From assembly GCA_027214125.1 (NCBI GenBank), contig JAPWHF010000002.1, positions 124,001 through 188,000 of the forward strand: 64,000 nt of DNA, written 5' to 3'. How positions within the stretch are numbered: position 1 is the stretch's first letter; every line of letters begins with the position of its first letter. The stretch is from Zoogloeaceae bacterium G21618-S1. GTDB lineage: Bacteria; Pseudomonadota; Gammaproteobacteria; Burkholderiales; Rhodocyclaceae. The notes beneath the pieces are model-generated. The model searched no databases. It had not been told where the DNA came from and saw only the letters and a list, made by a program, of their open reading frames with translations. Below are positions 34,714-50,143 of this stretch, piece by piece. A program made the position numbers and the translations under genes.

Positions 34714-35319
34714 GTGACTTCACCCGCCCCTGACACCCTAAAAGTGACCCCCGAAGCCTTGGCGGCGATACGCACCGACATGCTGCGCTTTGCCACCATG
34801 CAACTGCGTGACAGCCACCTGGCCGAAGACCTGGTGCAGGACACAATGATCACCGCGCTCAGCAAGGCAGCGCAGTTTGGCGGCCGCTCCTCGGTCAAGA
34901 CCTGGGTGTTCGCGATTTTGCGCAACAACGTGATCGACGCCATCAAGCAACGCTCGCGCACCGTCAATGCCGGCGACTACATCGCCGAAGGCGAGAGCAT
35001 GGACAGCGCCTTCGATACGCTGTTCAAGGCCAACGAACACTGGACACCGGCGGCCCGCCCCACCGACTGGGGCGACCCGGAAGACGCGCTGCGCGAACAA
35101 CAATTCTGGAAGGTTTTCGACGCCTGCCTCAACCGGCTGCCCGAAAACACGGCGCGCGTTTTCATGATGCGCGAGATCCTGGAACTCGACAGCGCCGAGA
35201 TCTGCGACACCTTGTCAATCAGCATGAGCAACTGCCACGTCATCCTGCACCGCGCCCGCAACGGCCTGCGCCGCTGCCTTGAATCCAACTGGTTTTCGGA
35301 GGGATCACCGGCATGCTGA
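34714..35319 (+). CDS. Sigma-70 family RNA polymerase sigma factor (ECF-like)
   Basis: A 201-residue sigma factor with region 2 (DSHLAEDLVQDTMITALSKA, then VKTWVFAILRNNVIDAIKQR) and region 4 (RLPENTARVFMMREILELDS, then ISMSNCHVILHRARNGLRRCL). It resembles the TIGR02943 group. AAGGA at 34703-34707 is 7 bases before a GTG at 34714, which decides the start in a long open frame. The stop overlaps the start of the zinc-binding anti-sigma gene by 7 bp. Position after sodB suggests, but does not show, an oxidative stress role. Confidence 0.9.
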   Translation: MTSPAPDTLKVTPEALAAIRTDMLRFATMQLRDSHLAEDLVQDTMITALSKAAQFGGRSSVKTWVFAILRNNVIDAIKQRSRTVNAGDYIAEGESMDSAFDTLFKANEHWTPAARPTDWGDPEDALREQQFWKVFDACLNRLPENTARVFMMREILELDSAEICDTLSISMSNCHVILHRARNGLRRCLESNWFSEGSPAC

Positions 35320-35510
35320 GCTGCAAGGAAACCTCTCACCTCATCTCCCAAGCGCAGGATCGCGAGCTGGGCATTGTCGAGCGCATGCAACTCGAGCTGC
35401 ACCTGGCCATGTGCAAAGGCTGCAGCAACCTGCGCAAACAAATGGATTTTATGCGTAGCGTGATTCGCCGCCACTCCGCGGCTGACGACGATACCCACTC
35501 CGATCACTGA
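35313..35510 (+). CDS. Zinc-binding anti-sigma factor (zf-HC2 type)
   Basis: A 65-residue soluble protein with the HxxxCxxC motif in LHLAMCKGCSNL (about 27-38) and an N-terminal CKETSHLISQAQDREL segment. Such ZAS-domain proteins hold their partner sigma factor and can release it on thiol oxidation. There is no membrane helix. It is translationally coupled to the sigma gene and ends 1 bp before truC. Confidence 0.88.
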   Translation: MLSCKETSHLISQAQDRELGIVERMQLELHLAMCKGCSNLRKQMDFMRSVIRRHSAADDDTHSDH

Positions 35511-36376: not shown

Positions 36377-37342
36377 ATGCTCGCCACCTTGCCCCTGCTT
36401 CGCAAGACCGCCTTCCCCGCGCTGACCCGCAGCCGCATCGAAACCCTGCAGATCAACCTCGGCTACCGCTGCAACCAGCAATGCCTGCACTGCCATGTGA
36501 ATGCCGGCCCCAAGCGCACCGAGGAGATGGACAGCGACACCATCGACGCCATCCTGCGCTTCGTCGACAGCAACCCCGACGTGCGCATGCTCGACCTCAC
36601 CGGCGGCGCGCCGGAACTCAACCCGCACTTTCGCCGCTTGGTGGTCTCGGCCCGCGCCCGTGGCATGCGTGTCATCGACCGTTGCAACCTGACCATCCTC
36701 AGCGAGCCGGGCTACGAGACCCTCGCCGACTTCCTCGCCGAGCAAAGCGTGGAGGTCGTTGCCTCGCTGCCCTGTTATCTCGAAGACAACGTCAATGCCC
36801 AGCGCGGCAAGGGCGTGTTCGAAGCGAGCATCAACGGCCTCAAGCAACTCAACGCGCTCGGCTACGGCCAGCCCGACAGCGCGCTGACGCTCAACCTGGT
36901 TTTCAATCCCCAGGGCGCCGTCCTGCCGCCGCCGCAAGAAGCGCTCGAAGCGGCCTACAAGACCCACCTCGGCGAGCATTTCGGCATCGTCTTCAACCAG
37001 CTGTTCACGCTGGCCAACATGCCGATCCAGCGCTTTGGCTCCACCCTGCTTTCCAAAGGCGGCTTCAACCGCTACATGGATCTGCTCAAGTCCGCCCACC
37101 GCGACGACAACCTGCCCGGCGTGATGTGCCGCACCCAGATCAGCATCGACTGGCAGGGCAATCTGTACGACTGCGACTTCAACCAGATGCTTGAAATGCA
37201 CACCGAAGACGCCAACGGCCAGCGGCTGAACATTCACGACGCCACCGCGCAGCAGCTCGAAGGCGGTCGCATTCAGGTGGCCGGCCACTGCTACGGCTGC
37301 ACCGCCGGCCAGGGCTCAAGCTGCGGTGGCGCGCTGAGCTGA
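36377..37342 (+). CDS. arsS: Radical SAM/Cys-rich protein ArsS (arsenosugar biosynthesis family)
   Basis: A 321-residue radical SAM enzyme. The [4Fe-4S] motif is CNQQCLHC (Cys32, 36, 39), a GGAPELN segment binds SAM, and the C-terminal Cys-rich domain ends HCYGCTAG...SSCGGALS (Cys305, 308, 316). This is the TIGR04167 pattern. Family members in some bacteria contain selenocysteine in this tail; here all positions are Cys. ArsS is known to add a 5'-deoxyadenosyl group to methylated arsenic in arsenosugar synthesis. AGGAG precedes the ATG by 8 bases. It heads an operon with a symporter and a phosphoesterase. No arsM is in the window. Confidence 0.92.
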   Translation: MLATLPLLRKTAFPALTRSRIETLQINLGYRCNQQCLHCHVNAGPKRTEEMDSDTIDAILRFVDSNPDVRMLDLTGGAPELNPHFRRLVVSARARGMRVIDRCNLTILSEPGYETLADFLAEQSVEVVASLPCYLEDNVNAQRGKGVFEASINGLKQLNALGYGQPDSALTLNLVFNPQGAVLPPPQEALEAAYKTHLGEHFGIVFNQLFTLANMPIQRFGSTLLSKGGFNRYMDLLKSAHRDDNLPGVMCRTQISIDWQGNLYDCDFNQMLEMHTEDANGQRLNIHDATAQQLEGGRIQVAGHCYGCTAGQGSSCGGALS

Positions 37343-37367
37343 TTCTCTGGACATCACGGGGCTGACA

Positions 37368-38765
37368 ATGAATTTCTCCAACACACAAGGCGTCTACTTC
37401 TGGGGCTTTCTGGTGGTCTTCGGGGTAGTGATGTATCTCATTTCCCCCAAGGTCAAGGACGAAGGCGGCTTCTTTCGCGGCACCGACACCGAGGGCCGTC
37501 CGGCCTCGTCGTGGGCCTTGATGATGAGCATCTTCATCAGCTGGATTTTCGCCAAATCGGTCACCAATGCCGCCAACCTCGGCGCCGCCTACGGCATCGT
37601 CGGCGGGCTGGCCTACGCCACCTACTGGCTGTCGATTCCCTTCGCCGGCTGGATCATCTACCGCCTTCGCACCCGCGAAGGCGCAACCGGACTGGTGCCC
37701 TTTCTCGTCGCCAAATACGGGCGCTTCGCCGCCATGGCCTTTTCGGCCGCCATACTGATCCGCCTCTACAACGAAGTGTGGAGCAACACCGCGGTGGTCG
37801 GCGGTTACTACGGCGAATCCGGCTCTTTCGCCTTCATCGCCTCGGCGCTGCTGTTCACCGCCGCCGTGCTGCTCTACAGCCTCAAGGGCGGGCTGCGCAG
37901 CTCGATCTTTACCGATGTGATCCAGGCCGTGGTGTTCGTGCTCTTCCTTGGCCTGGTGCTGATCTGGATTGTGCCCACCCATGGCCCGGTGGCGCTGCTG
38001 ACCGAAGGCCATTTCGCGCTCGATGCAGGTGCCGATCTGCTGCTCGTCGCGCTGTTGCAGGTCTTGTCCTACCCCTTCCACGACCCGGTCCTCACCGACC
38101 GCGGCTTCATCACCCGCGAAAAAACCATGCTGCGCGCCTTCGTGATCGCCGGCGTACTGGGCTTCTTCGCCATCCTCGCCTTCAGTCTGGTCGGCGTGCA
38201 CGCCAAGCTCGAAGGCATCGCCGCGGCCGGCAACGCGCCGGCGCAAGTCGCCAAAGGATTGGGATTGGCCGGTTTCTTCGCGATGAGCGTGGTGATGATC
38301 TCTTCCGCCGCTTCGACGCTGGACTCGACCTTCACCTCACTGTCCAAATCGGTTGCGCACGAGCTGCCGCTGCTGGCCGGACGCACGCCAGGCACCCGCG
38401 CCATCCGCAACGGCGTGGTGACCATGGCGGTGTTCGCCCTGCTCGGCAACCTGCCCATGATGGCCGGCACCGACATCCTCAAGGCCACCACGCTGTCGGG
38501 CACCATGGTGATCGGGCTGGCGCCCATATTTCTGCTCTCGCGCTGGGTCAGCTACTCGCCGCTGTCCTTCCATCTGGCCTTCTGGAGCGGCATGGCGTTG
38601 GGCGTGATGCTCGCGCTCGGCGCGATTCCGGCCAGCTGGGCGATCGGCACCGGCAAGTACGGCCTGCTGCTGGGCACCAACCTGTACGGTCTGATCATCT
38701 GCACCGCCGGCTTCCTGCTACCGCTGGCGCTCGGCCATCGCCGTAGCGCAACCGAAGCCGCATGA
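37368..38765 (+). CDS. Sodium:solute symporter family protein
   Basis: A 465-residue inner-membrane transporter with about 12 helices, of the SSS (LeuT-fold) family. Conserved parts include SIFISWIFAKSVTNAANLGAAYG-type sequence in helix 2 (about 50-72), GLRSSIFTDVIQAVVF and a Ser-rich SSAASTLDSTFTSLSKS stretch around 310-326 that normally forms the Na+ site. It starts 25 bp after arsS and overlaps the next gene by 4 bp, so it probably imports or exports a substrate of the same pathway. The solute is unknown. Confidence 0.88.
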   Translation: MNFSNTQGVYFWGFLVVFGVVMYLISPKVKDEGGFFRGTDTEGRPASSWALMMSIFISWIFAKSVTNAANLGAAYGIVGGLAYATYWLSIPFAGWIIYRLRTREGATGLVPFLVAKYGRFAAMAFSAAILIRLYNEVWSNTAVVGGYYGESGSFAFIASALLFTAAVLLYSLKGGLRSSIFTDVIQAVVFVLFLGLVLIWIVPTHGPVALLTEGHFALDAGADLLLVALLQVLSYPFHDPVLTDRGFITREKTMLRAFVIAGVLGFFAILAFSLVGVHAKLEGIAAAGNAPAQVAKGLGLAGFFAMSVVMISSAASTLDSTFTSLSKSVAHELPLLAGRTPGTRAIRNGVVTMAVFALLGNLPMMAGTDILKATTLSGTMVIGLAPIFLLSRWVSYSPLSFHLAFWSGMALGVMLALGAIPASWAIGTGKYGLLLGTNLYGLIICTAGFLLPLALGHRRSATEAA

Positions 38766-39688
38766 GCGACGCCGGGCGCGTCTGTCCGCTGCGCTATCGC
38801 TATGGCGCAGCGGACATTGCCGCCGCCCCCGAGCGCGTCGCCGAAACGCTGTATGTAGTCGGCGGGTTATATGGCAACCCGGCGGCACTCGATGCGCTGC
38901 AGGCCATGGTCGCCGCCGAACCCGGCCCGGTGACCCTGTGCTTCAACGGTGATTTCAACTGGTTCAACGTCGATGACGCCGGCTTCGACCAGATCAACAC
39001 TGCGGTCGCGAGGCACGACGCCATCCTCGGCAACGTCGAGGCCGAACTGCAGCCCGAGGCGGACGACGCCGGCTGTGGCTGCGCCTACCCGGACACGGTC
39101 GATACGGCCGTGGTGGAACGGTCCAACCTGATCCACGCCCGCCTCAAGGCCACCGCTGCCCGTCACCCCGCTCACCTCGCCCGATTGGCAACGCTGCCGA
39201 TGTTTGCGCGCTACCGGATCGGCGCGCTGCGCGTCGGCGTGGTGCATGGCGACGCCAACGCCCTGGCGGGCTGGGAATTCGACGTCGGCCGCCTTGGCGA
39301 CGCTTCACACCGCGCACGCTTGACGCAACAATTTCACACCGCCGAAGTGGACGTCTTTGCCAGCAGTCACACCTGCCTGCCCGTGTGCCGAGCGCTCGCC
39401 GACAGCAAGGTGCTGATCAACAACGGCGCCGCCGGCATGCCAAATTTCAGCGGCACGCAACACGGCATCCTCACCCGCATCAGCCAACACCCCGGCCCGC
39501 ATCCGGCACTGTATGGCCTGCGCGTTGGCGTGCATCGAATCGAAGCCCTGGCGTTGCCTTACGACCCCGCCGCCTGGCACGCCGACTTCGTCACCAACTG
39601 GCCACCGGGCAGCCCGGCGCATCAGTCATATTTTGACCGCATCGCAAATGGCCCCGCCTTCACGCTGGCGCAAGCCGCACCGGAGTAA
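38762..39688 (+). CDS. Metallophosphoesterase-like protein with degenerate first metal motif
   Basis: A 308-residue calcineurin-like phosphoesterase fold. The expected DxH(GN) motif reads VVGGLYGN (33-40), with Gly34 and Tyr37 in place of the metal-binding Asp and His. Later motifs are better kept: FNGDFNWF (61-68), GNVEAEL, VVHGDANA and FASSHTCLP. It may bind metal differently or be non-catalytic. The start overlaps the symporter gene (ATGA). It ends the arsS operon. Confidence 0.82.
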   Translation: MSDAGRVCPLRYRYGAADIAAAPERVAETLYVVGGLYGNPAALDALQAMVAAEPGPVTLCFNGDFNWFNVDDAGFDQINTAVARHDAILGNVEAELQPEADDAGCGCAYPDTVDTAVVERSNLIHARLKATAARHPAHLARLATLPMFARYRIGALRVGVVHGDANALAGWEFDVGRLGDASHRARLTQQFHTAEVDVFASSHTCLPVCRALADSKVLINNGAAGMPNFSGTQHGILTRISQHPGPHPALYGLRVGVHRIEALALPYDPAAWHADFVTNWPPGSPAHQSYFDRIANGPAFTLAQAAPE

Positions 39689-39691
39689 ACG

Positions 39692-39717
39692 AAAAAGGCC
39701 GAGGCATGGCCCCGGCC
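39692..39717 (-). terminator. Terminator after the PEP-CTERM genes
   Basis: On the minus strand GGCCGGGGC (39717-39709) pairs imperfectly with GCCTCGGCC (39705-39697), followed by TTTTTC. It lies 25 bp past the SdiA-regulated-like gene. Confidence 0.75.
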
Positions 39718-39741
39718 CTTGGCTTCAGTGCAGCACCGACC

Positions 39742-40677
39742 TCAGGTGCGACGCCGACGCAGGCGATGGGCCAGGCCCGCCAGACCGACCAGCATCATCG
39801 CCCAGGTCTCGGGCTCCGGCACCGGCGAGAGCACGAACAAGCGCGAATTCGGCGTGCCGGAATCTTCAGCCACCAGATAGATCCGACCGAACTCGTCCAC
39901 GGTCACCCCTTCAATCGCCTGCGTGGTCACGCCGGACAGATCGAAACGGCTCAAGGTGTTGCCGGCGCGGTCGATCTCCAGCAGCATCTGCGACCCTAGG
40001 CTCAGCACCAGCAGATTGTCAGCCGCGGCCGTGCCGGCCAACGCGTCGATCGGCGACAGCGTCTGCACATCCGACAGGCTGCTCACCCCGAGCATGCTGG
40101 CGTCGAACAACGGCGTCATGGTCGAGATACCGCCACCGGCGGCAAACGTCAGCGATCCAGCACGGACCTCCATCGGGCTGTCCTGCTTGACCGACACGAA
40201 GCTGCCGTCACGCGGGTCATAGCTGATGCCTTCGATGCCGTTGTTGGCGTAGGCGTAGTCGGAGATCGACGCCCAGGGCACATTGGCCAGCGACACGCTG
40301 CCACCGGCGACGTAGTTAAACTGAAAAGCATCCTGAAGGCGCTCTTCAGCCACTACCAGCACGCCGCCACCCAGATAGGTCAGACCTTCGGCATCGTTGT
40401 GACGAGTCGCCGCCGGCCAGGCGCTGAACGCCATCGACGACAGCGTTTGGCCGGTCAGCGACACTTCAACCACGCCTTCGCCCTCGTCTCCGACAAAGAA
40501 CAGCGAGCCGCGATCGCGGGCATAGGTAACGGCAGACGCTTCCAGGCCCATTGTCCCGAGCGAATCGAGCGCGTAGTTTCCAGTCACCGAGTAAGACGAG
40601 AGGTCGATCGAGTTTGCGGCGTGGGCAACGGAGCCGAAAAGCGCCAGCGCGGCGACGAGACAATGCATGCGTTTCAT
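39742..40677 (-). CDS. SdiA-regulated-domain protein with PEP-CTERM anchor
   Basis: A 311-residue exported protein. A signal peptide ends near SVAHA. The body is a beta-propeller-like repeat (ASAVTYARDRGSLFFVGDEG, then DAEGLTYLGGGVLVVAEER and IEGVTVDEFGRIYLVAEDSG) as in the SdiA-regulated/esterase-like phytase group. The C-terminal sorting signal is VPEPETWAMMLVGLAGL followed by RRRR, read by an exosortase encoded elsewhere. The second of two nearby ATGs (40677) is spaced better from GAGGAG. It follows the lamin-tail gene by 16 bp. Confidence 0.88.
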   Translation of the reverse strand: MKRMHCLVAALALFGSVAHAANSIDLSSYSVTGNYALDSLGTMGLEASAVTYARDRGSLFFVGDEGEGVVEVSLTGQTLSSMAFSAWPAATRHNDAEGLTYLGGGVLVVAEERLQDAFQFNYVAGGSVSLANVPWASISDYAYANNGIEGISYDPRDGSFVSVKQDSPMEVRAGSLTFAAGGGISTMTPLFDASMLGVSSLSDVQTLSPIDALAGTAAADNLLVLSLGSQMLLEIDRAGNTLSRFDLSGVTTQAIEGVTVDEFGRIYLVAEDSGTPNSRLFVLSPVPEPETWAMMLVGLAGLAHRLRRRRT

Positions 40678-40693
40678 GGCCATGTCTCCTCAA

Positions 40694-41365
40694 TCAGCGC
40701 GCAGCACGGCGGCGGGCAATGCCGCCAACCAGGGCCAACCCGGCCAGCATCATGGCGTAGGTTTCAGGCTCGGGCACCGGTGCAGCGACGTAGTAGCCCG
40801 GGTTGCCGACATCGCCACTTGTCGCTGCATAAGAGCCGAAGCTGTCGCCGACACTCGCCAGCACCCAGTTGGCAGTCACGGTGGTCCCGGCCAGATCGGC
40901 CGCGCTGAGCGGGTTGCCGGTCGCGTTCTGGGTACGCACCGTGCCGGCAAAGACCTGGTCACCATAGGTGAGACGGTCAATCAGGCTGCCCGACGCATCA
41001 AACAGATTGATTTCATCCCCGCGGCTCAGATTATTGGTATATCCACCCAGGACTTTCACCCCGGCGGCCAGCGACCAATCGAGACGGAAATCGGCCTCGG
41101 CACTTTCGGTAATGATCACCGACTCACCAACGCCTACCAGGCCAAAACCTGACAGATCGAATACACCTGCCAGACGGCTCTCATCGTCATAACTCCAGCC
41201 GGCAAAATCCACCGCCGAGTGACCCATATTGGTAAACTCGACGAATTCACCACCGCTGCCGCTGTACATCCATTCGGTGATCTGGATGTCCGCCACCGAC
41301 ACGGCCGAAAATGCCGGCCCCGACAGCAGCATGGCCAAACCAAAACCGCATAGCGTCTTCTTCAT
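40694..41365 (-). CDS. Lamin-tail-domain protein with PEP-CTERM anchor
   Basis: A 223-residue exported protein. The signal peptide ends near GPAFSA. An Ig-like lamin tail domain begins IQITEWMYSGSGGEFVEFTN and continues through DFAGWSYDD and GDEINLFDASGSLIDRLTYGD. The C-terminus is VPEPETYAMMLAGLALVGG with a basic tail, an exosortase signal. It is the first gene of a two-gene PEP-CTERM unit probably destined for the surface or the extracellular matrix. Confidence 0.9.
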   Translation of the reverse strand: MKKTLCGFGLAMLLSGPAFSAVSVADIQITEWMYSGSGGEFVEFTNMGHSAVDFAGWSYDDESRLAGVFDLSGFGLVGVGESVIITESAEADFRLDWSLAAGVKVLGGYTNNLSRGDEINLFDASGSLIDRLTYGDQVFAGTVRTQNATGNPLSAADLAGTTVTANWVLASVGDSFGSYAATSGDVGNPGYYVAAPVPEPETYAMMLAGLALVGGIARRRAAR

Positions 41366-41558
41366 CGTACTGACCTCATCGTTTTTTGTTGGACCACGCC
41401 GACCAAACCCGATCGGCCGTGGATGACACCATGCTAGCGACGATGTGTGACGATTCGACGATGGGTAAATACGCCAATGGCGCGACGCCCCGATTGGCTC
41501 AATTTCCGTGCCCCAGCGCCGATAATATGAGTATCGACACCGCTGGATTCACCGCCCC

Positions 41559-42458
41559 ATGCCCCTTTGGCCATTCTCTCGTCGTCGTCAGAATCCTAGG
41601 GACGCCCTGCAGCTGATGCACACCTTGCTGGCCATGGCCTGGGTCGTTGAAGCCCGAGATCCCTACACCGGCGGTCACCTGTGGCGTGTGTCGCGTCTGG
41701 CCGAAACGCTCGCCCGCCGTGCCGGCCTGGGCGAGCGGGATATTGCCCGCATTGCCGTCGGTGGCTTTTTGCATGACCTGGGGAAAGTCAGCATTCCCGA
41801 CGCCATTTTGCGCAAGCCGGATCGACTCACCGACTACGAATTCGACATCGTCCGCACTCACCCCGCAGTCGGCGCCCGCCTGCTCGCGGGTCACCCCCTG
41901 GCAGCACTGGCGGTCGACGCGGTGCTATCCCATCACGAACGCCCCGACGGCAAGGGCTACCCGGCCGGCCTGAACGCCGACGACATCCCGCGCGACGCGC
42001 GAATCATCGGCATCTGCGATGCCTTCGACGCCATGACCAGCACCCGCCCCTATCGCAAGGGCATGCCGGTCGACACCGCGCTGAACATCATCCGGGAGAA
42101 CCTCGGCATCCAGTTCGACGCGCAATTCGGCGAGCACTTTCTCAGCCTGACCGACACCGGCGCTCTGGAACACATCGTCGGCCACACCGACGAAGGCATT
42201 CCACTGCTCGACTGCATGATGTGCGGCCCCACGCTGGTGGCCCGGCGCGAGCAGGATGTGGGCGGCACCCTGTTCTGCCCACAATGCAGCGGTGAATACC
42301 GCCTCGCCACCGGCACAAACGGACAACTCGAAGCCCGCCAGACCGGCAACGTGGCCTCGGCGGCGGATCTGGCCCCCGTCGCCGACAGCGCGCTCATCCA
42401 GCGTTTTCTGAACGGTGCAGCGCGCAGCGCGTGGGCCAGCGGTGTGATCGACGGCTAG
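41559..42458 (+). CDS. HD-GYP phosphodiesterase with C-terminal zinc ribbon
   Basis: A 299-residue cytoplasmic HD-GYP protein, predicted to hydrolyse c-di-GMP. HD is at His72-Asp73 (GFLHDLGK) and the GYP motif is HHERPDGKGYP (125-135). After the domain a four-Cys zinc-ribbon pattern appears: Cys219, Cys222, Cys240 and Cys243 (CMMC and CPQC). No receiver or sensor domain is present, so the zinc ribbon may be the control element. No ribosome site is clear at the ATG. It ends at a terminator shared with infA. Confidence 0.9.
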   Translation: MPLWPFSRRRQNPRDALQLMHTLLAMAWVVEARDPYTGGHLWRVSRLAETLARRAGLGERDIARIAVGGFLHDLGKVSIPDAILRKPDRLTDYEFDIVRTHPAVGARLLAGHPLAALAVDAVLSHHERPDGKGYPAGLNADDIPRDARIIGICDAFDAMTSTRPYRKGMPVDTALNIIRENLGIQFDAQFGEHFLSLTDTGALEHIVGHTDEGIPLLDCMMCGPTLVARREQDVGGTLFCPQCSGEYRLATGTNGQLEARQTGNVASAADLAPVADSALIQRFLNGAARSAWASGVIDG

Positions 42459-42482
42459 GCCTCACCCTCGAAGCACGGACGT

Positions 42483-42509
42483 AAAAAAGCCCGGTCGAAC
42501 CGGGCTTTT
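42483..42509. terminator. Bidirectional terminator between HD-GYP and infA
   Basis: AAAAAAGCCCGGT (42483-42495) and ACCGGGCTTTT (42499-42509) pair around CGA. It serves the two convergent genes. Confidence 0.92.
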
Positions 42510-42526
42510 GACTGTGTCGCACCCGC

Positions 42527-42769
42527 TCAGTGCGGGCGGCGCTGTTGGACTTCCTTGTGGCGGAAGCTGATGCGCGCTTTGGACAGGTCGTAGGGCGACA
42601 TTTCGAGCGTCACCCGATCACCGGCCAGGATCCGGATGCGGAACTTGCGCATCTTGCCCGAGGCGTAGGCTGCCACGTCCATGCCGTTATCCAGTTTGAC
42701 CAGAAAACGGGCATCGCGAAGCACTTCCTGCACTACACCTTCGAACTGGATCATTTCTTCTTTTGCCAT
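42527..42769 (-). CDS. infA: Translation initiation factor IF-1 (paralogue type)
   Basis: An 80-residue S1/OB-fold protein starting [17 protein letters not shown] with [30 protein letters not shown]. It is eight residues longer than E. coli IF-1, with a [10 protein letters not shown] tail, and lies alone rather than in the ribosomal protein operon. Betaproteobacteria often have a second infA like this. AGGAG lies 9 bases before the ATG. Confidence 0.93.
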
Positions 42770-43231
42770 AAATGCTCTCTCCTAATCTGTTGTGGGTCCG
42801 GCGATGCCATCGGTGCGGCAGTCAAAAACACGCCCCTCACGACTGGCGAGCGCGCCGGTTTCAATTCTTTAGCTGGCGGCAGGCAATTGTTGCCCGGTGC
42901 CGACGGGCTGCCCGGACAAACAACGACCGGACGCAATTGACGGGACCACGCCCGACGTTCCGACCACCCCGGCGCCTCGAAGGCCTGCCAGAATGGCGGG
43001 TATGACGACGCTTATTGCGCCATGCTGATTCGCTGCGGCCGCGCAGTTACAGATTTGCGGCCGAGATAAGGGCTTCATTCTACTCGATTTTTGTGCCTCG
43101 CACAAAAATCTCCCGCTACGCCACGACAATTCACTGTCAGGTTTTCACCCCCAGGACGGTCTGAACCATCACAAGCCCGCCGGTCAGCCACCTGACCGCG
43201 AGGCAACCAACCCAGGGAGCGCCGTGAGGCC
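42770..43231. other. Intergenic region between infA and the VTT/oxidoreductase gene
   Basis: This 462-bp divergent gap has no supported gene. It holds a perfect inverted repeat at 43086-43110, a smaller GC palindrome at 43034-43047 (CTGCG and CGCAG around GCCG) and the infA leader. I see no clear -35/-10 pair for the rightward gene. Confidence 0.6.
43086..43110. promoter_or_regulatory. Perfect 11-bp inverted repeat, operator-like
   Basis: GATTTTTGTGC (43086-43096) and GCACAAAAATC (43100-43110) are exact inverted copies around CTC, about 120 bp before the next start codon. The AT-rich arms and lack of a T-tail argue for a protein-binding site over a terminator. Confidence 0.65.
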
Positions 43232-45382
43232 ATGAACAAGAAAAAACTCGGACTCGTCATCGTCCTGCTGGCCCTGATCGCCAGTTATTTCATCTTCGAT
43301 CTGGGGCGCTTTTTCAGCCTCGATTTCTTCAAGAGCCAGCAAGCGGCCATTGAAGCCTACCGCGTCGCCAACCCGTGGACGACCGCCGGCATCTTCTTTT
43401 CCGTGTATGTCGCGGTGACCGCGCTGTCCTTTCCCGGCGCAGCGGTACTCACCCTGGCAGCGGGGGCAATCTTCGGGTTGCTGATCGGTCTGGTCATTGT
43501 CTCCTTCGCGTCATCGATCGGCGCCACACTGGCGTTTCTTGCTTCGCGCTTTTTGCTGCGCGACTGGGTGCAAAGCCGCTTTGGCGATCGCCTCAAGGCG
43601 CTCAACGCAGGCGTCAAAAAAGACGGCGGCTTCTACCTCTTCACCCTGCGCCTGGTACCGGCCTTCCCTTTTTTCGTCATCAATCTGGTGATGGGTCTCA
43701 CGCCGATCCGCACCACCACCTTCTACTGGGTCAGCCAGATCGGCATGCTCGCCGGCACCATCGTGTATGTGAACGCCGGCACGCAATTGGGGCAAATCGA
43801 TTCGCTGGCCGGCATTCTGTCGCCGGGGCTGCTCGGCTCTTTTGTGCTGCTCGGCATTTTCCCGCTCATCGCCAAAAAAATTGTCGCGGCGGTGCAGGCC
43901 AAAAAGGTCTACGCCCAATGGGTTTACAAGAAGCCCGCCACGTTTGATCGCAATCTTGTCGTGATCGGTGGCGGCTCGGCCGGCCTGGTGAGCGCCTATA
44001 TCGCCGCGGCGGTGAAGTCGAAAGTCACTCTGATCGAGCGCCACAAGCTGGGCGGCGACTGCCTGAACACCGGCTGCGTGCCGTCCAAGGCGCTTATCCG
44101 CTCGGCCAAGTTTCTGTCGCACGTCGAGCGCGCCCGGGAGTTCGGCATCGATTCGGCCGAAGCGAAAATGGACTTCGCCAAGGTGATGGAACGCGTGCAG
44201 TCGGTGGTCAAGGCCATCGAGCCGCACGACTCGGTCGAGCGCTACACCGGACTGGGCGTGGACGTGGTCGAAGGCTCGGCCAAAATCACCTCGCCGTGGA
44301 CGGTCGAAGTGACCCACAACGATGGCCGGGTCGAGACGCTCACCACCCGCGCCATCATCATCGCCACCGGCGCGCGGCCCTTCGTGCCGCCGATTCCCGG
44401 TATCGAAGACATGGACTACCTGACCTCCGACAATCTGTGGGCGCTGCGCGAACAGCCGCGCCGCCTGCTGGTGCTCGGCGGCGGCCCGATCGGTAGCGAA
44501 CTCACCCAAGCCTTCGCCCGCCTGGGCAGCCAGGTGACGCAAGTCGAGATGCTGCCGCGGATCATGGCGCGGGAAGACGAAGACGTCTCGCAACTGGTAA
44601 TGGAACGCTTCATCGCTGAGGGCATCGATGTGCGCGTCGGAACGAAAGCCAAACAGTTCGTGATCGAAGACGGCGAGAAAGTGCTGATTGCCGAGCACGA
44701 AGGCAAGGATGTGCGCATCCCCTTCGACGCCGTGCTGGTCGCCGTCGGCCGCGCTGCCAATCTCAAGGGTTTCGGCCTCGAGGAAATAGGTATCCCGACC
44801 GGGAAAACAGTAGAGACCAACGAACTCCTGCAAACGATCTACCCCAACATCTACGCCGCTGGCGATGTCGCCGGCCCCTTCCAATTCACGCACACCGCCG
44901 CCCATCAGGCGTGGTACGCCGCGGTCAATGCCCTGTTCGACCCGTTCAAGACCTTCAAGGCCGACTACTCGGTGATCCCCTGGGCCACTTTTGTCGAACC
45001 CGAAGTCGCCCGCGTCGGGCTGAACGAAGCCGACGCCACGGCCGAAGGCATTGCCTACGAAGTCACCAAGTTCGGCATCGACGACCTCGACCGCGCGATC
45101 GCCGACTCGGAAGCCCACGGCTTTGTGAAAGTGCTCACCGTGCCGGGCAAAGACCGCATTCTCGGGGTCACCATCGTGGGCGAACACGCCGGCGACCTGA
45201 TCGCCGAATACGTGCTGGCCATGAAGCAAGGCATCGGCCTCAACAAGATCCTCGGCACCATCCACATCTACCCGACCATGGCCGAGGCCAACAAATACGT
45301 CGCCGGGCAATGGAAGCGCGCCCACGCCCCGCAGAAGCTGCTCGAATGGGTCGGTCGCTTCCATGCCTGGCGCCGCGCGTAA
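43232..45382 (+). CDS. VTT (TVP38/TMEM64) membrane domain fused to mercuric-reductase-like FAD oxidoreductase
   Basis: A 716-residue fusion. Residues 1-225 form a VTT/DedA-like membrane domain with helices at about 6-23, 50-65, 70-105, 135-155, 163-185 and 195-215. Residues 240-716 form a class I pyridine nucleotide-disulfide oxidoreductase: FAD motif VVIGGGSAG, redox pair Cys277 and Cys282 in GDCLNTGCVPSK, NAD motif LGGGPIGSELTQAF, and the C-terminal HIYPTMAEANK with the base His. The mercury-binding C-terminal Cys pair of MerA is absent. Such fusions often accompany ArsS-type clusters. It heads the second half of that module. Confidence 0.92.
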   Translation: MNKKKLGLVIVLLALIASYFIFDLGRFFSLDFFKSQQAAIEAYRVANPWTTAGIFFSVYVAVTALSFPGAAVLTLAAGAIFGLLIGLVIVSFASSIGATLAFLASRFLLRDWVQSRFGDRLKALNAGVKKDGGFYLFTLRLVPAFPFFVINLVMGLTPIRTTTFYWVSQIGMLAGTIVYVNAGTQLGQIDSLAGILSPGLLGSFVLLGIFPLIAKKIVAAVQAKKVYAQWVYKKPATFDRNLVVIGGGSAGLVSAYIAAAVKSKVTLIERHKLGGDCLNTGCVPSKALIRSAKFLSHVERAREFGIDSAEAKMDFAKVMERVQSVVKAIEPHDSVERYTGLGVDVVEGSAKITSPWTVEVTHNDGRVETLTTRAIIIATGARPFVPPIPGIEDMDYLTSDNLWALREQPRRLLVLGGGPIGSELTQAFARLGSQVTQVEMLPRIMAREDEDVSQLVMERFIAEGIDVRVGTKAKQFVIEDGEKVLIAEHEGKDVRIPFDAVLVAVGRAANLKGFGLEEIGIPTGKTVETNELLQTIYPNIYAAGDVAGPFQFTHTAAHQAWYAAVNALFDPFKTFKADYSVIPWATFVEPEVARVGLNEADATAEGIAYEVTKFGIDDLDRAIADSEAHGFVKVLTVPGKDRILGVTIVGEHAGDLIAEYVLAMKQGIGLNKILGTIHIYPTMAEANKYVAGQWKRAHAPQKLLEWVGRFHAWRRA

Positions 45383-45398
45383 AGGAGGTAAGACGATG
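45381..45398 (+). promoter_or_regulatory. Strong ribosome site for the DUF547 gene
   Basis: AAAGGAGGT (45381-45389) lies 6 bases before the ATG at 45396 and overlaps the stop of the previous gene. It fixes the start within a longer open frame. Confidence 0.8.
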
Positions 45399-46205
45399 AC
45401 ACGCCTCAAGTCCCTCCTGCTCGCCGCCAGCCTCACCCTGCTCAGCGCCGCCGCGCAGGCCTTTGACCACAGGCATGCCGCCTGGAACGCGCTGCTCAAG
45501 CAGCATGTGGTGGTCAATACCGCAGGCACCGCGTCGGCGGTCCGCTACGCCGCGCTGAAGAAAGATCGCGCCCCGCTCAAGGCCTACCTCGACGCCGTAT
45601 CAGCCGTCACGCCCGCCGACTACGCCAGCTGGCCGAAGCCGCAGCAACTCGCCTTCCTGATCAACGCCTACAACGCCTTCACGGTCGAACTGATCCTTAC
45701 CCGCTACCCGGACCTGGCCTCGATCAAGGATCTGGGCAGCCTGTTCTCCTCACCCTGGAAGCAGAAGTTCTTTACCCTGCTCGGCCAGGAAGAGAGTCTG
45801 GACGGCATCGAACACGGCCGTATCCGCGCCGCCGGCGTCTTCGACGACCCGCGCATCCACGCTGCGGTGGTATGCGCCTCGATCGGCTGCCCCATGCTGC
45901 GCAACGAGGCCTTCGTGGCCGAACGCCTCGACACTCAACTCGAAGACGGCATGCGCCGCTTCCTCTCCGACCGCAGCCGCAACCGCTTCGACGCGGCCAG
46001 CAACACGCTCTACGTGTCAAAGATTTTCGACTGGTACGCCGACGACTTCACCCGTGGCCACAAGGGGTTCGACTCTCTCCAGGCCACCTTCGCCCACTAT
46101 GCCGAGGCCCTCGCTGGCACACCGGACGCCGTCCAGAAGCTGCGCAGCAGCGCGCCGACAATCGAGCACCTCGACTACGACTGGAGGCTCAACGATGCCC
46201 GCTAA
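45396..46205 (+). CDS. DUF547 domain protein, exported
   Basis: A 269-residue protein with a signal peptide ending near AAAQA. The DUF547 core follows: LAFLINAYNAFTVELIL at about 85-101, SLDGIEHGRIR, and the Cys-containing VVCASIGCPMLRNEAF at about 150-165, then FDWYADDF. The domain has a cysteine-based active-site appearance but no proven activity. It starts 13 bp after the VTT/oxidoreductase gene and overlaps the DUF1223 gene by 11 bp. Confidence 0.9.
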   Translation: MTRLKSLLLAASLTLLSAAAQAFDHRHAAWNALLKQHVVVNTAGTASAVRYAALKKDRAPLKAYLDAVSAVTPADYASWPKPQQLAFLINAYNAFTVELILTRYPDLASIKDLGSLFSSPWKQKFFTLLGQEESLDGIEHGRIRAAGVFDDPRIHAAVVCASIGCPMLRNEAFVAERLDTQLEDGMRRFLSDRSRNRFDAASNTLYVSKIFDWYADDFTRGHKGFDSLQATFAHYAEALAGTPDAVQKLRSSAPTIEHLDYDWRLNDAR

Positions 46206-46926
46206 ACCCCTCCTCGCCCTTGCCGCCGCGCTGTGCGCCGGTGGCGCCGTGGCCGCCGAATGCACCGCCAGCAGCGGCCCGCTGCAAACCCCGCTGGTCG
46301 AGCTCTACACCTCCGAGGGCTGCAGCTCCTGCCCGCCGGCCGATCGCTGGCTAGGCACGCTCAAACAATCGACCGACACCGTGGCGCTGGCCTATCACGT
46401 CGACTACTGGGACTACATCGGCTGGAAAGACCGCTTCGCCGAACCGCGCAATGGCCAACGCCAACGCAACAAGGTGGCGCTCACCGGCGGGCGCACGGTC
46501 TACACCCCGCAGATCATGATCAACGGCCGCGACAGCCGCGCATGGCGCGGAAACGACCCGCTGGCCGGTGTCACCCGGGGCGCTGCGACAGCACATATCC
46601 AGCTCACATCCGCCAAAGCATCCACTGGTGCAACGGTCAGCGTGCGCGCCACGGCGCCGAGCGACCGCCAGACGCAACTCGTTGTCGCGCGCTATGAAAA
46701 TGGTCATCAAAGCGAAGTCAAAGCCGGCGAAAATAGGGGCGAAACGCTCAATCACAGCTTTGTGGTGCGCGACTGGGAGACCCGAGCCATGCCGAGCAAG
46801 GCCCCGCTGAACGCCGATGTGCGCTTCCTGCCGCAAGAGAATACGGGCGGCGTCGTCGCCTTTATCGAAGACCTGCGCAGCGGCGAGGTGCTGCAAGCCC
46901 TGGCCTTGCCCGACTGCCACAGCTGA
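46195..46926 (+). CDS. DUF1223 protein, exported, thioredoxin-like
   Basis: A 243-residue protein. The signal peptide ends near GGAVAA. The conserved core begins VELYTSEGCSSCPPADRWL with a CxxC pair at about 41-44, followed by HVDYWDYIGWKDRFA and VYTPQIMINGRDS, all DUF1223 features and thioredoxin-like in layout. GGAGG lies 8 bases before the ATG inside the DUF547 gene. A periplasmic redox role is plausible from the CxxC but is not proven. Confidence 0.9.
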   Translation: MPAKPLLALAAALCAGGAVAAECTASSGPLQTPLVELYTSEGCSSCPPADRWLGTLKQSTDTVALAYHVDYWDYIGWKDRFAEPRNGQRQRNKVALTGGRTVYTPQIMINGRDSRAWRGNDPLAGVTRGAATAHIQLTSAKASTGATVSVRATAPSDRQTQLVVARYENGHQSEVKAGENRGETLNHSFVVRDWETRAMPSKAPLNADVRFLPQENTGGVVAFIEDLRSGEVLQALALPDCHS

Positions 46927-46934
46927 TCGCGCCC

Positions 46935-47630
46935 ATGCCGACACCGACGCTGTCGATCATCCTCCCCGTGCTCAACGAAGCCGCCGGCATCGCGTCGGTG
47001 CTCGCCCCGCTACAAGCACTGCGGCCAGCGGGCGTTGAATTGATCGTGGTCGACGGCGGCAGCACCGATGACACCGCCCGTGTGGCGACGCCGCTGTGCG
47101 AGCGCCTCATCACGGCGCCGCGCGGACGCGCCAGCCAGATGAACGCCGGCGCCAACATCGCGCAGGCAGATCGTCTGCTGTTTCAGCACGCCGACACCCG
47201 CCTGCCGCAAGACGCCATCACCGCCATCCACTCCGCGCTCGACACGCACGTCTGGGGGCGCTTCGATGTACACATCGACGGCCGGCATCCGATGCTCAAG
47301 GTGGTCGCCGCCATGATGAACCTGCGCTCCCGCCTCACCGGTATCGCCACCGGCGACCAGGCGATCTTCGTCCGCCGCACCGCCTTCGATCAGATCGGCG
47401 GCTTCGCCGACCTGCCGCTGATGGAAGACATCGCCCTGTCGCGCCGCCTCAAAGCACTTGGCCGCCCGGCCTGCCTGCGCCAGCGCGTCGCCACCGCCGG
47501 CCGACGCTGGGAGACCCACGGTGTGCTCCGCACCATCGTCCTGATGTGGCGGCTGCGCACCGCCTATGCCCTCGGCGCCAACCCGGCCGACCTTGCCAGA
47601 CGCTATGGCTATGCCCCCCGTGAATCCTGA
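46935..47630 (+). CDS. TIGR04283 family glycosyltransferase (ArsS-associated)
   Basis: A 231-residue GT-A family 2-type transferase. The nucleotide-sugar site is LIVVDGGSTDDTA (about 36-48), then LFQHADTRLP with the DxD-like motif, and a GDQAIFVRR ... EDIALSRRLK acceptor segment. It matches rSAM/selenodomain-associated transferase 2 (TIGR04283), annotated in arsenosugar clusters. It lies 8 bp after the DUF1223 gene and overlaps the partner TIGR04282 gene. Confidence 0.9.
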   Translation: MPTPTLSIILPVLNEAAGIASVLAPLQALRPAGVELIVVDGGSTDDTARVATPLCERLITAPRGRASQMNAGANIAQADRLLFQHADTRLPQDAITAIHSALDTHVWGRFDVHIDGRHPMLKVVAAMMNLRSRLTGIATGDQAIFVRRTAFDQIGGFADLPLMEDIALSRRLKALGRPACLRQRVATAGRRWETHGVLRTIVLMWRLRTAYALGANPADLARRYGYAPRES

Positions 47631-48246
47631 CGCCATCAACATCGCCATCTTCGCCAAGGCGCCTATCGCCGGCACAGCCAAGACACGGCTCATCCCCGCC
47701 CTTGGCGCCGCCGGTGCCGCACGGCTGCATCGACAGCTGGTGCGCCACGCGCTGCACACCGCGCAGGCCGCCGCGCTCGGCCCGGTCAGCCTGTGGTGCG
47801 CGCCCGACACCACGCACCGCTTCTTCCGCGCGCTGGCAGCCACCACCGGCATACCGCTGCATGTGCAATACGGCGAGCATCTCGGCGCGCGCATGCATCA
47901 CGCGCTCAGCGCACTCACCGCCACCGCGCCAACCCTGCTGATCGGCACCGATTGCCCAATGCTTGACCCCGCCACCTTGCAGGCGTGTGCCGTGGCGCTG
48001 CGCGGTGGCGAAGACGCCGTCTTTCTGCCGGCTGAAGATGGCGGCTACGCGCTGGTCGGTTTGCGCCGACCGCAGCCCGGGCTGTTTCGCGATATCGACT
48101 GGGGCAGCGGCGCCGTGATGGCACAAACCCGCGACCGCCTGCGCGAATGCCACTTGCGCTGGGCCGAGCCCGCCACGGTGTGGGACGTCGATCGCCCGCA
48201 AGACCTCGCCCGCCTGCAGCAAAGCGCCTTGCTCGCCGCGCGATGA
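47611..48246 (+). CDS. TIGR04282 family transferase (ArsS-associated)
   Basis: A 211-residue nucleotidyl/glycosyl-transferase-like protein, rSAM/selenodomain-associated transferase 1. It has IAIFAKAPIAGTAKTRLIP near the start, LLIGTDCPMLDP in the middle and AEDGGYALVGLRRPQPGLF, all typical. Starts at 47605, 47611 and 47620 are possible and none has a good ribosome site; overlap with the upstream gene suggests coupling. It normally occurs together with TIGR04283. Confidence 0.88.
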   Translation: MPPVNPDAINIAIFAKAPIAGTAKTRLIPALGAAGAARLHRQLVRHALHTAQAAALGPVSLWCAPDTTHRFFRALAATTGIPLHVQYGEHLGARMHHALSALTATAPTLLIGTDCPMLDPATLQACAVALRGGEDAVFLPAEDGGYALVGLRRPQPGLFRDIDWGSGAVMAQTRDRLRECHLRWAEPATVWDVDRPQDLARLQQSALLAAR

Positions 48247-48311
48247 GGGGGAACACGCACGCGCCCTTCAAGTCACACCGCATTCGAATCCTCCCGCCGG
48301 AGCCCCGATTC

Positions 48312-49046
48312 ATGCCGTCTCGCATCGCCCGCAGCCTGTGTCTTGGCGCCGCGCTCATCGTGCCGCTGTGCGCCACCGCAGTCACCCCACAGCCCGCGCC
48401 GTTCACCGACGCCCCCGCGGGCAAGCCCCCGGCCAGCTGGGTGTACACACACATCAACAAGGATCTGCCCGGCACCGATTTCTCGATCGTTCCAGAACCG
48501 ACCGGCAACGTGCTTCGCGCCTACGCCAAATCCGCCGCCTCCAGCCTCGTCTACACCTTGCCCGGCGCCGTCGTGGCCAACACCCGGCTGCAATGGCGCT
48601 GGAAAGTCTCCGAAGCTGTGCCGAAATCCGCCATGGCCAGCAAAGCCACCGACGACTACGCGGCAAGGGTTTACGTGTTCTTCGACTACGACAAATCGCG
48701 CCTGCCCTTCACCGACCGGGTCAAGATCGACATGGCACGCACGCTCTACGGCGCCGACCTGCCCACCGCCGCGCTGTGCTACGTGTGGGGCACGGCCGAT
48801 GCCATCGGCGCCATCGCGCCCAACCCCTACACCGACCGGGTGCGCATGATCGTCCTCCAGCGCGGCGACGCCAAGGCCGGACAGTGGATTGCCGAATCGC
48901 GCGATCTGGCCGCCGACTTCCAGGCCGCCTTTGGCGAGCCGGCACCCGCCGTCACCGGCATCGCGCTTGGCGCCGACACCGACAACACCGGCGCCACGGT
49001 CGAAGCCCGCTTCGGCGATCTGCAACTGGTTCCGATCGCCCAGTGA
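48312..49046 (+). CDS. DUF3047 protein, exported
   Basis: A 244-residue protein with a signal peptide ending near CATA. It carries the DUF3047 core: LQWRWKVSE, DDYAARVYVFFDYD, ALCYVWGT and VRMIVLQRGDAKAGQW. Function is unknown; the fold is probably a beta-sandwich. It begins 65 bp after the TIGR04282 gene and overlaps the next gene by 4 bp (GTGA). Confidence 0.88.
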   Translation: MPSRIARSLCLGAALIVPLCATAVTPQPAPFTDAPAGKPPASWVYTHINKDLPGTDFSIVPEPTGNVLRAYAKSAASSLVYTLPGAVVANTRLQWRWKVSEAVPKSAMASKATDDYAARVYVFFDYDKSRLPFTDRVKIDMARTLYGADLPTAALCYVWGTADAIGAIAPNPYTDRVRMIVLQRGDAKAGQWIAESRDLAADFQAAFGEPAPAVTGIALGADTDNTGATVEARFGDLQLVPIAQ

Positions 49047-50143
49047 AACGCCTCGTGCTGCTCGGCGGCGGTCACGCCCATGTGTATGTGCTCGACGCGC
49101 TGGCCCGCGCGCGCCTGCCAGATACCGAGGTCACGCTCATCTCGCCCTACCCGCGGCAGATCTACTCCGGCATGCTGCCCGGCTGGATCGCCGGCCACTA
49201 CCACATTGACGAGACAGCCATCCCGCTCACGCCGCTGGCCGAACGCGCCGGCGTGCGCTTCAAGCAAGCCCGCGGCATCGGGCTGGATCTCGACGCCCGC
49301 CGTGTGCGGTGCGACGACGGCAGCGAGATCCCCTTCACCTGGCTGTCCATCGACACCGGCCCGACCACCGCCAGCGCACGCATCGACGGCGGCATGCAAC
49401 ACGGCATTCCGGTGCGGCCGATCGAAGATTTCGTCACCCGAATCGATGCGCTGATCGCCGCCGCCAACGCTGACCCGGACTGCAGCGCCGCCATCATCGG
49501 TAGCGGCGCGGCAGGGGTTGAGCTCGCCCTCGCCCTGCGCGCGCGCCTGCCCGATCTGTCGCTGGCGCTGATCGGCAGCACCGCCCTGCCGCTCGACGGG
49601 CTCCCCGGCCGTTTGCAGCGCCGGGCGCGTCGCCTGCTCGACGCACGCCACATCCGCTGGATTGGCCAGCGCCGCGCCAAGGCCATCGACGCCGAGGGCG
49701 TCTGGTTGGATGACGACGAACAGGTGCCCGCCCACCATGTGCTGCAAGTGACCGGCGCCGCTGCGCCCGACTGGCCAGCGCTCGCTGGCCTGAGCACCGA
49801 CGCAGGCGGTTTCATTCGCGTTGGCCCGACGCTGCAATCGGTGTCGCACCCCGTCGTCTTCGCCGCCGGCGACGTGGCGGCCTATGCCGACCCACGCCCG
49901 AAATCCGGCGTCTTCGCTGTGCGCGCCGGGCCGCCGCTGGCCGAGAATCTGCGCCGCGCCATCGCTGGCGAAGCGCTCCTGCCGTGGCAAGCGCAGCGCC
50001 GCGCGCTGTATCTGATCAGCACCGGCGACCGGCGCGCCCTCGCCGCCTGGGGCCTCTTGTCGATCGAAGGCGCCTGGGTGTGGCGCTGGAAAGATCACAT
50101 CGACCGCGCCTTCATGGCCCGTTTCAGCCAGCACGGCATGTGA
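49043..50143 (+). CDS. Stand-alone SelD-N-terminal-type pyridine nucleotide oxidoreductase
   Basis: A 366-residue NDH-2-like FAD/NAD oxidoreductase. The N-terminus reads RLVLLGGGHAHVYVLDAL, the mark of TIGR03169, the domain found fused N-terminally to selenide, water dikinase in many bacteria. Here there is no SelD part; the protein ends after the NADH-dehydrogenase fold. FAAGDVAAYADPRPKSGV marks the second FAD segment and YSGMLPGWIAGHY the substrate region. The GTG start overlaps the DUF3047 stop. Confidence 0.88.
   Translation: MKRLVLLGGGHAHVYVLDALARARLPDTEVTLISPYPRQIYSGMLPGWIAGHYHIDETAIPLTPLAERAGVRFKQARGIGLDLDARRVRCDDGSEIPFTWLSIDTGPTTASARIDGGMQHGIPVRPIEDFVTRIDALIAAANADPDCSAAIIGSGAAGVELALALRARLPDLSLALIGSTALPLDGLPGRLQRRARRLLDARHIRWIGQRRAKAIDAEGVWLDDDEQVPAHHVLQVTGAAAPDWPALAGLSTDAGGFIRVGPTLQSVSHPVVFAAGDVAAYADPRPKSGVFAVRAGPPLAENLRRAIAGEALLPWQAQRRALYLISTGDRRALAAWGLLSIEGAWVWRWKDHIDRAFMARFSQHGM

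Follow-up and report, generated by a model that had tools for sequence, protein, structure and literature searches.

Gene content of the ArsS locus

The window analyzed here is a 64,000-nt stretch of a Denitromonas-like genome (Zoogloeaceae bacterium G21618-S1, contig JAPWHF010000002.1, positions 124,001 to 188,000), and the subject is a gene module built around ArsS, a radical S-adenosylmethionine (SAM) enzyme. Arsenosugar formation is usually explained by the successive action of the arsenite methyltransferase ArsM and of ArsS in one cell. In the window, ArsS is followed by a symporter and a phosphoesterase-like protein, here called PEst, and a second run of genes lies further downstream. 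The module genes were typed with the curated models of Pfam and NCBIfam. Every gene listed by the first-pass annotation of this DNA was present at its place and was confirmed by these models, PEst being confirmed through its relatives and its predicted fold. The first run consists of the following genes.

36377..37342, + strand: ArsS radical SAM enzyme with a C-terminal DUF3641 domain (TIGR04167, 459 bits, cut-off 300; PF12345, PF04055)
37368..38765, + strand: SSS-type sodium:solute symporter (PF00474, 26.8 bits, cut-off 22.8, residues 43–201 only)
38762..39688, + strand: PEst, a protein resembling phosphoesterases, with changes in the metal ligands and four invariant cysteines

The closest named relatives by ArsS, among the matches listed, were Denitromonas species (88–94% identical). 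The DUF3641 domain of the window's ArsS scored 188 bits with PF12345. In an alignment of 181 ArsS rows, 78 positions were identical in at least 98% of the rows, including the three cysteines of the radical SAM motif CxxxCxxC (C32, C36, and C39), and the window's ArsS keeps the near-invariant positions. No residue in this alignment cleanly separated the ArsS proteins of loci with ArsM from those of loci with PEst. Because the near-invariant positions are shared and no position separates the two types, the same ArsS chemistry is likely, judging from the aligned residues, in ArsM and PEst loci, and an outside source of methylated arsenic would then be the simplest way to feed ArsS. In the ArsS tree, the PEst-type loci did not form one clade but were interleaved with the ArsM-type loci, and well-supported branches forced at least eight changes. 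The arsenate reductase gene arsC, which the first-pass annotation had placed 26 kb away, was found at that distance upstream (ArsC, PF03960, at about 9.9–10.3 kb).

For comparison, 399 genomes of the same order as the host were sampled, of which 119 contained ArsS and 280 did not. Of the 124 ArsS matches in this sample, 100 were fetched with their surroundings (the order loci); most of the 24 not fetched had low scores or lay near the edge of a contig. A further 80 loci were the best 80 of a length-limited list, picked by likeness to the window's ArsS. All locus counts are lower bounds because several of the fetched stretches end at contig ends, and the gene names in the locus tables (e.g., those of the VTT-oxidoreductase and the sigma factor) may include paralogues because the assignments relied on similarity to a limited set of reference proteins. 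At the genome level, ArsM, PEst, and TIGR04283 were assigned by scoring no more than the top five to seven candidates in each genome, and ArsM was counted as present in the order sample when a match reached E ≤ 1e-25. The second run, with the frequency of each gene in the order loci, is as follows.

43232..45382, + strand: VTT membrane domain fused to a MerA/lipoamide-dehydrogenase-like pyridine nucleotide-disulphide oxidoreductase (PF09335, PF07992, PF02852; 81/100 order loci)
45396..46205, + strand: DUF547 protein (PF04784; 47/100; start taken from the translation)
46195..46926, + strand: DUF1223 protein (PF06764; Denitromonas-type loci only; start taken from the translation)
46935..47630, + strand: TIGR04283 glycosyltransferase (274 bits, cut-off 182; 74/100)
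47611..48246, + strand: TIGR04282 CofC-like transferase, DUF2064 (189 bits, cut-off 134; 65/100)
48312..49046, + strand: DUF3047 protein (PF11249; 37/100; start taken from the translation)
49043..50143, + strand: TIGR03169 oxidoreductase with a SelD-N-type domain, unfused (378 bits, cut-off 310; 34/100)

The two runs had been proposed to be parts of one module, a proposal that would have failed if the genes of the second run occurred mostly without ArsS. The distribution of TIGR04283 supports it: this family was present in 124 of the 399 order genomes, comprising 113 of the 119 with ArsS versus 11 of the 280 without it. Moreover, a near-complete set without any gap occurs in relatives (e.g., L098, L106, L116, L117, L124, and L149). 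These gapless versions and the companion counts in the order loci indicate that the second run belongs to ArsS, except for DUF1223. The latter, which had also been listed as a companion, was found in none of the 100 order loci and in only two of the 80 further loci (L010 and L012, both Denitromonas-type).

Absence of arsM

The absence of arsM from the module, noted in the first-pass annotation, extends to the whole genome, which is 99.99% complete, and the possibility raised there that arsM lies elsewhere was not borne out. Genome-wide searches with three models were negative: the best match to the arsenite methyltransferase model NF008823 scored 53.7 bits (cut-off 263), the best match to a profile built from 12 ArsM sequences scored 24.9 bits, and NF038099 gave 21 bits. 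If a methyltransferase had nevertheless escaped recognition elsewhere in the genome, the module would be part of a standard but dispersed ArsM–ArsS pathway. In favor of this are eight weak matches to the arsenite methyltransferase model (the 53.7-bit match being the best) and the diversity of the ArsMs in such clusters, since versions of 345–349 residues from three loci scored 160–173 bits, below the cut-off of the same model. However, the cluster-type ArsMs of other genomes scored approximately 108–192 bits with this model, well above the best match here, the two further models were negative, and comparably weak matches occurred in 14 of 14 control genomes. We therefore regard a dispersed standard pathway as improbable.

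The ArsM-like proteins of 345–349 residues lie beside ArsS (L180:10214-11251, L190:10091-11137, and L105:4026-5075) and reached no curated NCBIfam cut-off among the matches listed. In addition, five ArsS-less genomes carry TIGR04283 directly beside a long-kind ArsM-like gene, that is, the ArsM half of the pathway without ArsS (family f16; G332:C4:154744-156160, G359:C53:3557-4982, G359:C43:6744-8179, G015:C1:2946732-2948169, G146:C1:823918-825331, and G384:C42:11880-13282).

The lack of arsM is not peculiar to this genome, as might have been supposed. ArsM was enriched in genomes with ArsS (38/119 versus 24/280; Fisher, 2e-8), but the remaining 81 of the 119 ArsS genomes of the order had no detectable arsM. 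When the 38 ArsM-bearing ArsS genomes were split by match length, read by eye, 19 carried a cluster-type ArsM and 19 another type. If two thirds of the ArsS genomes in the order sample cannot methylate arsenic, then either organisms share methylated arsenic or ArsS acts on other compounds.

The gene slot behind ArsS

In the host family, ArsS was found in three of the 13 sampled genomes, including that of the window. In the other two family loci, the gene immediately following ArsS is ArsM, which overlaps it in L180 and begins 28 bases past the ArsS stop codon in L190, whereas in the window the SSS symporter begins 25 bases downstream of ArsS and is followed by PEst. PEst tracks ArsS closely: it was found in 57 of the 119 ArsS genomes versus one of the 280 ArsS-less genomes, and the assembly of this single genome (G242) consists of 410 contigs and also contains TIGR04283. 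ArsM was present in 17 and PEst in 39 of the 100 order loci, and no locus contained both (naive Fisher, 9e-5). Among the 80 further loci, the corresponding numbers were 18, 8, and 0. At the genome level, PEst was found in three of the 19 genomes with a cluster-type ArsM versus 54 of the 100 other ArsS genomes (Fisher, 0.002).

The PEst protein of the window alone matched no model in Pfam or NCBIfam, and 11 of 18 PEst family members matched Metallophos_2 at E values of up to 10 (best, 1.6e-6). A profile of the family found no match among solved structures by sequence, and searches with two single members gave nothing convincing; the similarity to Escherichia coli YfcE was weak (profile E, 0.024 with a probability of 2%; BLASTP E, 0.15). 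When predicted folds were compared with VIA-align on the Foldseek ranking, the model of PEst matched the SapH-like calcineurin-like phosphoesterase fold, which it is accordingly predicted to adopt. The complete two-metal ligand set of such enzymes (DxH, GD, GN, H, and GHTH) was not found in PEst. In weak alignments to SapH and YfcE, the ligands of metal 1 are replaced: DxH is changed to GxY and GHTH to [ST]HTC, and GD, GN, H162, and H203 are kept, positions that we take to be metal ligands in the relatives. Cysteines 8, 105, 107, and 205 were invariant in 37 of 37 PEst sequences. PEst thus represents a family with a predicted phosphoesterase fold whose metal site appears to have been rebuilt.

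Transporters and possible substrates

The symporter matched TIGR00813 below its cut-off (33.7 bits versus 184). Relatives that were 69–76% identical occurred in nine of the 100 order loci, and none was found in 80 ArsS-less genomes at E ≤ 1e-10, a search that included no positive control genome. A further six order loci contained a PhnD-type ABC transporter; all 15 of these transporter loci had PEst, and none had ArsM. Symporter and ABC versions both occur within family f46 (six and two, respectively) and therefore look interchangeable, which suggests that the SSS and PhnD-type transporters share a substrate. PhnD-fold binding proteins that bind arsenic oxyanions are known (AioX, ArxX, and ArrX, according to excerpts of the published account; PMC5908839).

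The same transporters bear on the nature of the substrate. An ArsS without ArsM might adenosylate arsenite, monomethyl arsenic, or a phosphorus or selenium compound, and a PhnD-type transporter would suggest phosphonate or phosphite. The PhnD-like proteins of L056 and L016 did score above the cut-off of TIGR01098, the phosphate/phosphite/phosphonate subfamily (175 and 168 bits, cut-off 112), and stayed below that of the selenate family (100 and 93 bits, cut-off 250). ArsS without arsM is also common in the order, 36 of the 81 genomes concerned lacking PEst as well, and selD is present in the host genome. On the other hand, the near-invariant ArsS positions are equal in loci with and without ArsM, the two locus types are interleaved in the ArsS tree, and the only selenium-related gene recognized in the module is the unfused SelD-N-type oxidoreductase. 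A different ArsS substrate is unlikely on this balance, although it ranks ahead of an overlooked methyltransferase.

The first-pass annotation had left open whether the product contains arsenic or selenium, and we agree with this, selenium having no direct support. As a candidate in its own right, the selenium reading was set aside and retained only among these other substrates: selD (436 bits) is located on a different contig (C66), ArsS keeps its near-invariant positions, and neither selD nor any selenium gene beyond the SelD-N-type oxidoreductase was found among the module genes with the Pfam and NCBIfam models.

Split layout and neighboring genes

The two runs are separated by 3.5 kb, which contain the following genes.

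39742..40683, − strand: PEP-CTERM SdiA-regulated-like protein, outside the module (PF06977, PF07589; also behind PEst in L010–L013)
40694..41365, − strand: PEP-CTERM lamin-tail-domain protein, outside the module (PF00932, PF07589)
41559..42458, + strand: HD-GYP protein, occasional module neighbor (PF13487; 55–60% identical copies in L014, L099, L119, and L180)
42530..42769, − strand: infA, translation initiation factor IF-1, unrelated (PF01176)

The description of all these genes as unrelated is not supported, since an HD-GYP gene neighbors the module in L099, L119, and L180. In other genomes, relatives at this level of identity adjoin the sigma or VTT genes of the ArsS module, and the C-terminal part of the HD-GYP protein in the gap contains a CxxC-CxxC-like set of cysteines. 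In L014, a Rhodocyclaceae metagenome-assembled genome (MAG), an HD-GYP gene lies between PEst and the VTT gene. A papain-like (C92) protein of the YaeF/YiiX type is another occasional neighbor of the module (L056:17904-18692; also L099, L107, L112, L133, and L180).

The split layout also occurs in L010 and L012, at 77–97% protein identity, and L011 and L013 stop short of the second run. The split is a local rearrangement of Denitromonas/Rhodocyclaceae. L012 derives from a MAG named Proteobacteria bacterium PRO3; its module is of the Denitromonas type, with proteins 77–95% identical to those of the window, and the MAG is, by this similarity, probably a Denitromonas relative. The 3.5-kb split in Denitromonas, when many relatives keep the cluster together, could suggest a functionless, decaying remnant from which arsM was lost and that was broken by insertions. 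We consider this very improbable, since all the reading frames of the module are intact, the split layout is conserved in L010 and L012, and a transporter and PEst occupy the place of ArsM in two relatives, which decay would not leave.

The module probably begins near 34.7 kb, upstream of the start at 36377 given in the first-pass annotation, because a sigma/anti-sigma pair lies upstream and similar pairs occur near ArsS in other bacteria.

34714..35319, + strand: extracytoplasmic function (ECF)-type sigma factor of the TIGR02943 family (253 bits, cut-off 162; Pfam sigma-70 regions 2 and 4; GTG start picked by eye)
35313..35510, + strand: zf-HC2 anti-sigma factor, overlapping the sigma gene (NF052368, 69 bits, cut-off 50; PF13490)

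An RluA gene sits between this pair and ArsS. Sigma homologues were found near ArsS in 18 of the 100 order loci, although six of the 18 matches were only 23–30% identical and possibly generic, and in 30 of the 80 further loci; zf-HC2 homologues were found in 12 and 29 of these loci, respectively.

Proposed pathway

The best reading of the cluster is that it is of a known kind (ArsS, arsenosugar type) in an uptake-fed variant, in which PEst represents an unnamed family of partner proteins. Specifically, both runs would serve one organoarsenical pathway of the arsenosugar type, the methyltransferase of which was lost or never present and which is fed from outside, a reading to which we assign a probability of about 0.4. 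The SSS symporter, or elsewhere the PhnD-type ABC transporter, would import a methylated arsenical, such as dimethylarsinate. Reduction to the trivalent form would follow and may be carried out by the VTT-oxidoreductase in the membrane. ArsS would then place a 5'-deoxyadenosyl group on the arsenic, as is known for its family. Judging from their family names, a purine phosphorylase encoded on contig C64 may strip the adenine, and the TIGR04282 and TIGR04283 proteins may build the sugar conjugate. The phosphorylase is MTAP-like and scores just below the cut-off (273.3 versus 274.85 bits); MTAP homologues lie near ArsS in seven of the 100 order loci and two of the 80 further loci. A dedicated nucleosidase was also sought, and none was recognized in the window's module. 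The DUF547, DUF3047, and VTT proteins may work in or at the envelope, and the sigma/anti-sigma pair, by its position, probably controls the cluster. Most tentatively of all the steps, PEst, with its predicted SapH-like fold and changed metal site, would be a dedicated partner of ArsS where the locus lacks ArsM; it may process an adenosyl- or phospho-intermediate, or its cysteines may handle the arsenical.

Several observations weigh against this uptake-fed pathway. The exclusion of ArsM and PEst at the locus level rests on a naive test and is not significant in the 80 further loci (p = 0.19). Of 12 independent pairs in the ArsS tree, only zero to two were informative, so that this phylogenetic control has no power, although none of the pairs was contrary to exclusion. 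The genome-wide exclusion is incomplete, with PEst in the three cluster-type ArsM genomes mentioned above and in nine of the 19 genomes with another ArsM. Moreover, both ArsM and PEst are missing from 36 of the 119 ArsS genomes, which means that PEst is not required whenever ArsM is missing. The test of transporters against ArsM alone was not significant (p = 0.07), no SSS or PhnD-type transporter was seen in 24 of the 39 PEst loci, and PEst was not detected in L056, which has a PhnD-type transporter. Finally, eight of 10 PhnD-like stretches contain no cysteine, unlike AioX; proteins of the AioX type bind inorganic arsenic via a pocket cysteine, according to excerpts of the same account (PMC5908839).

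A more far-reaching version of the uptake-fed pathway is somewhat unlikely. PEst and the SSS or PhnD-type transporter would form a salvage front end in place of ArsM: bacteria unable to methylate arsenic would import methylated arsenic produced by neighboring organisms, and ArsS would then adenosylate it. PEst would be a novel type of calcineurin-like protein with thiolates in place of one metal site, and its substrate would be an adenosyl or phospho intermediate that contains arsenic. The ArsM–TIGR04283 pairs of family f16 would represent the complementary half of the system. PEst and the transporters provide a concrete handle, amenable to deletion, on whether methylated arsenic is shared or ArsS has other substrates. 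No report on ArsS clusters without ArsM or on PEst was recognized among the records listed from the open-access literature searched.

Comparison with known systems

PEst differs from SapH-type asymmetric Ap4A hydrolases and calcineurin-like phosphoesterases (3qfn and 3qfm) in that its DxH motif has G for the D and Y for the H, and Cys stands where GHTH has its last His. With regard to transport, a PhnD/PhnE-like transporter lies inside the cluster in some relatives, directly behind ArsS in L015, L016, and L056, whereas in the window the symporter occupies that slot and the locus has no PhnD-type ABC transporter. AioX, for its part, senses and does not transport, as stated in excerpts of its description (PMC5908839).

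The window can be compared with two organoarsenic systems. The arsQML cluster uses ArsL, a radical SAM enzyme other than ArsS. It is the arsinothricin cluster of Burkholderia gladioli, according to excerpts of the published account (PMC8552651), and resembles the window in being a small organoarsenic cluster with radical SAM chemistry on arsenic (PMC12159101, likewise in excerpts); ArsS, TIGR04283, and TIGR04282 were not mentioned in the excerpted accounts of arsQML. In the case of the cyanobacterial ArsM–ArsS arsenosugar pathway, the likeness is found in the genes themselves: the window's ArsS lies far above the equivalog cut-off, and both TIGR04283 and TIGR04282, which are arsenosugar biosynthesis glycosyltransferases by NCBI naming, are present. 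The ArsS of that pathway was reportedly characterized by Cheng et al. in 2021, as cited in PMC12159101. Unlike the cyanobacterial pathway, the genome of the window has no ArsM, a symporter and PEst stand behind ArsS, and the VTT-oxidoreductase, DUF547, DUF3047, and the sigma/anti-sigma pair are added. The new part of the finding is the slot behind ArsS, which holds a symporter and PEst where two relatives of the same family have ArsM.

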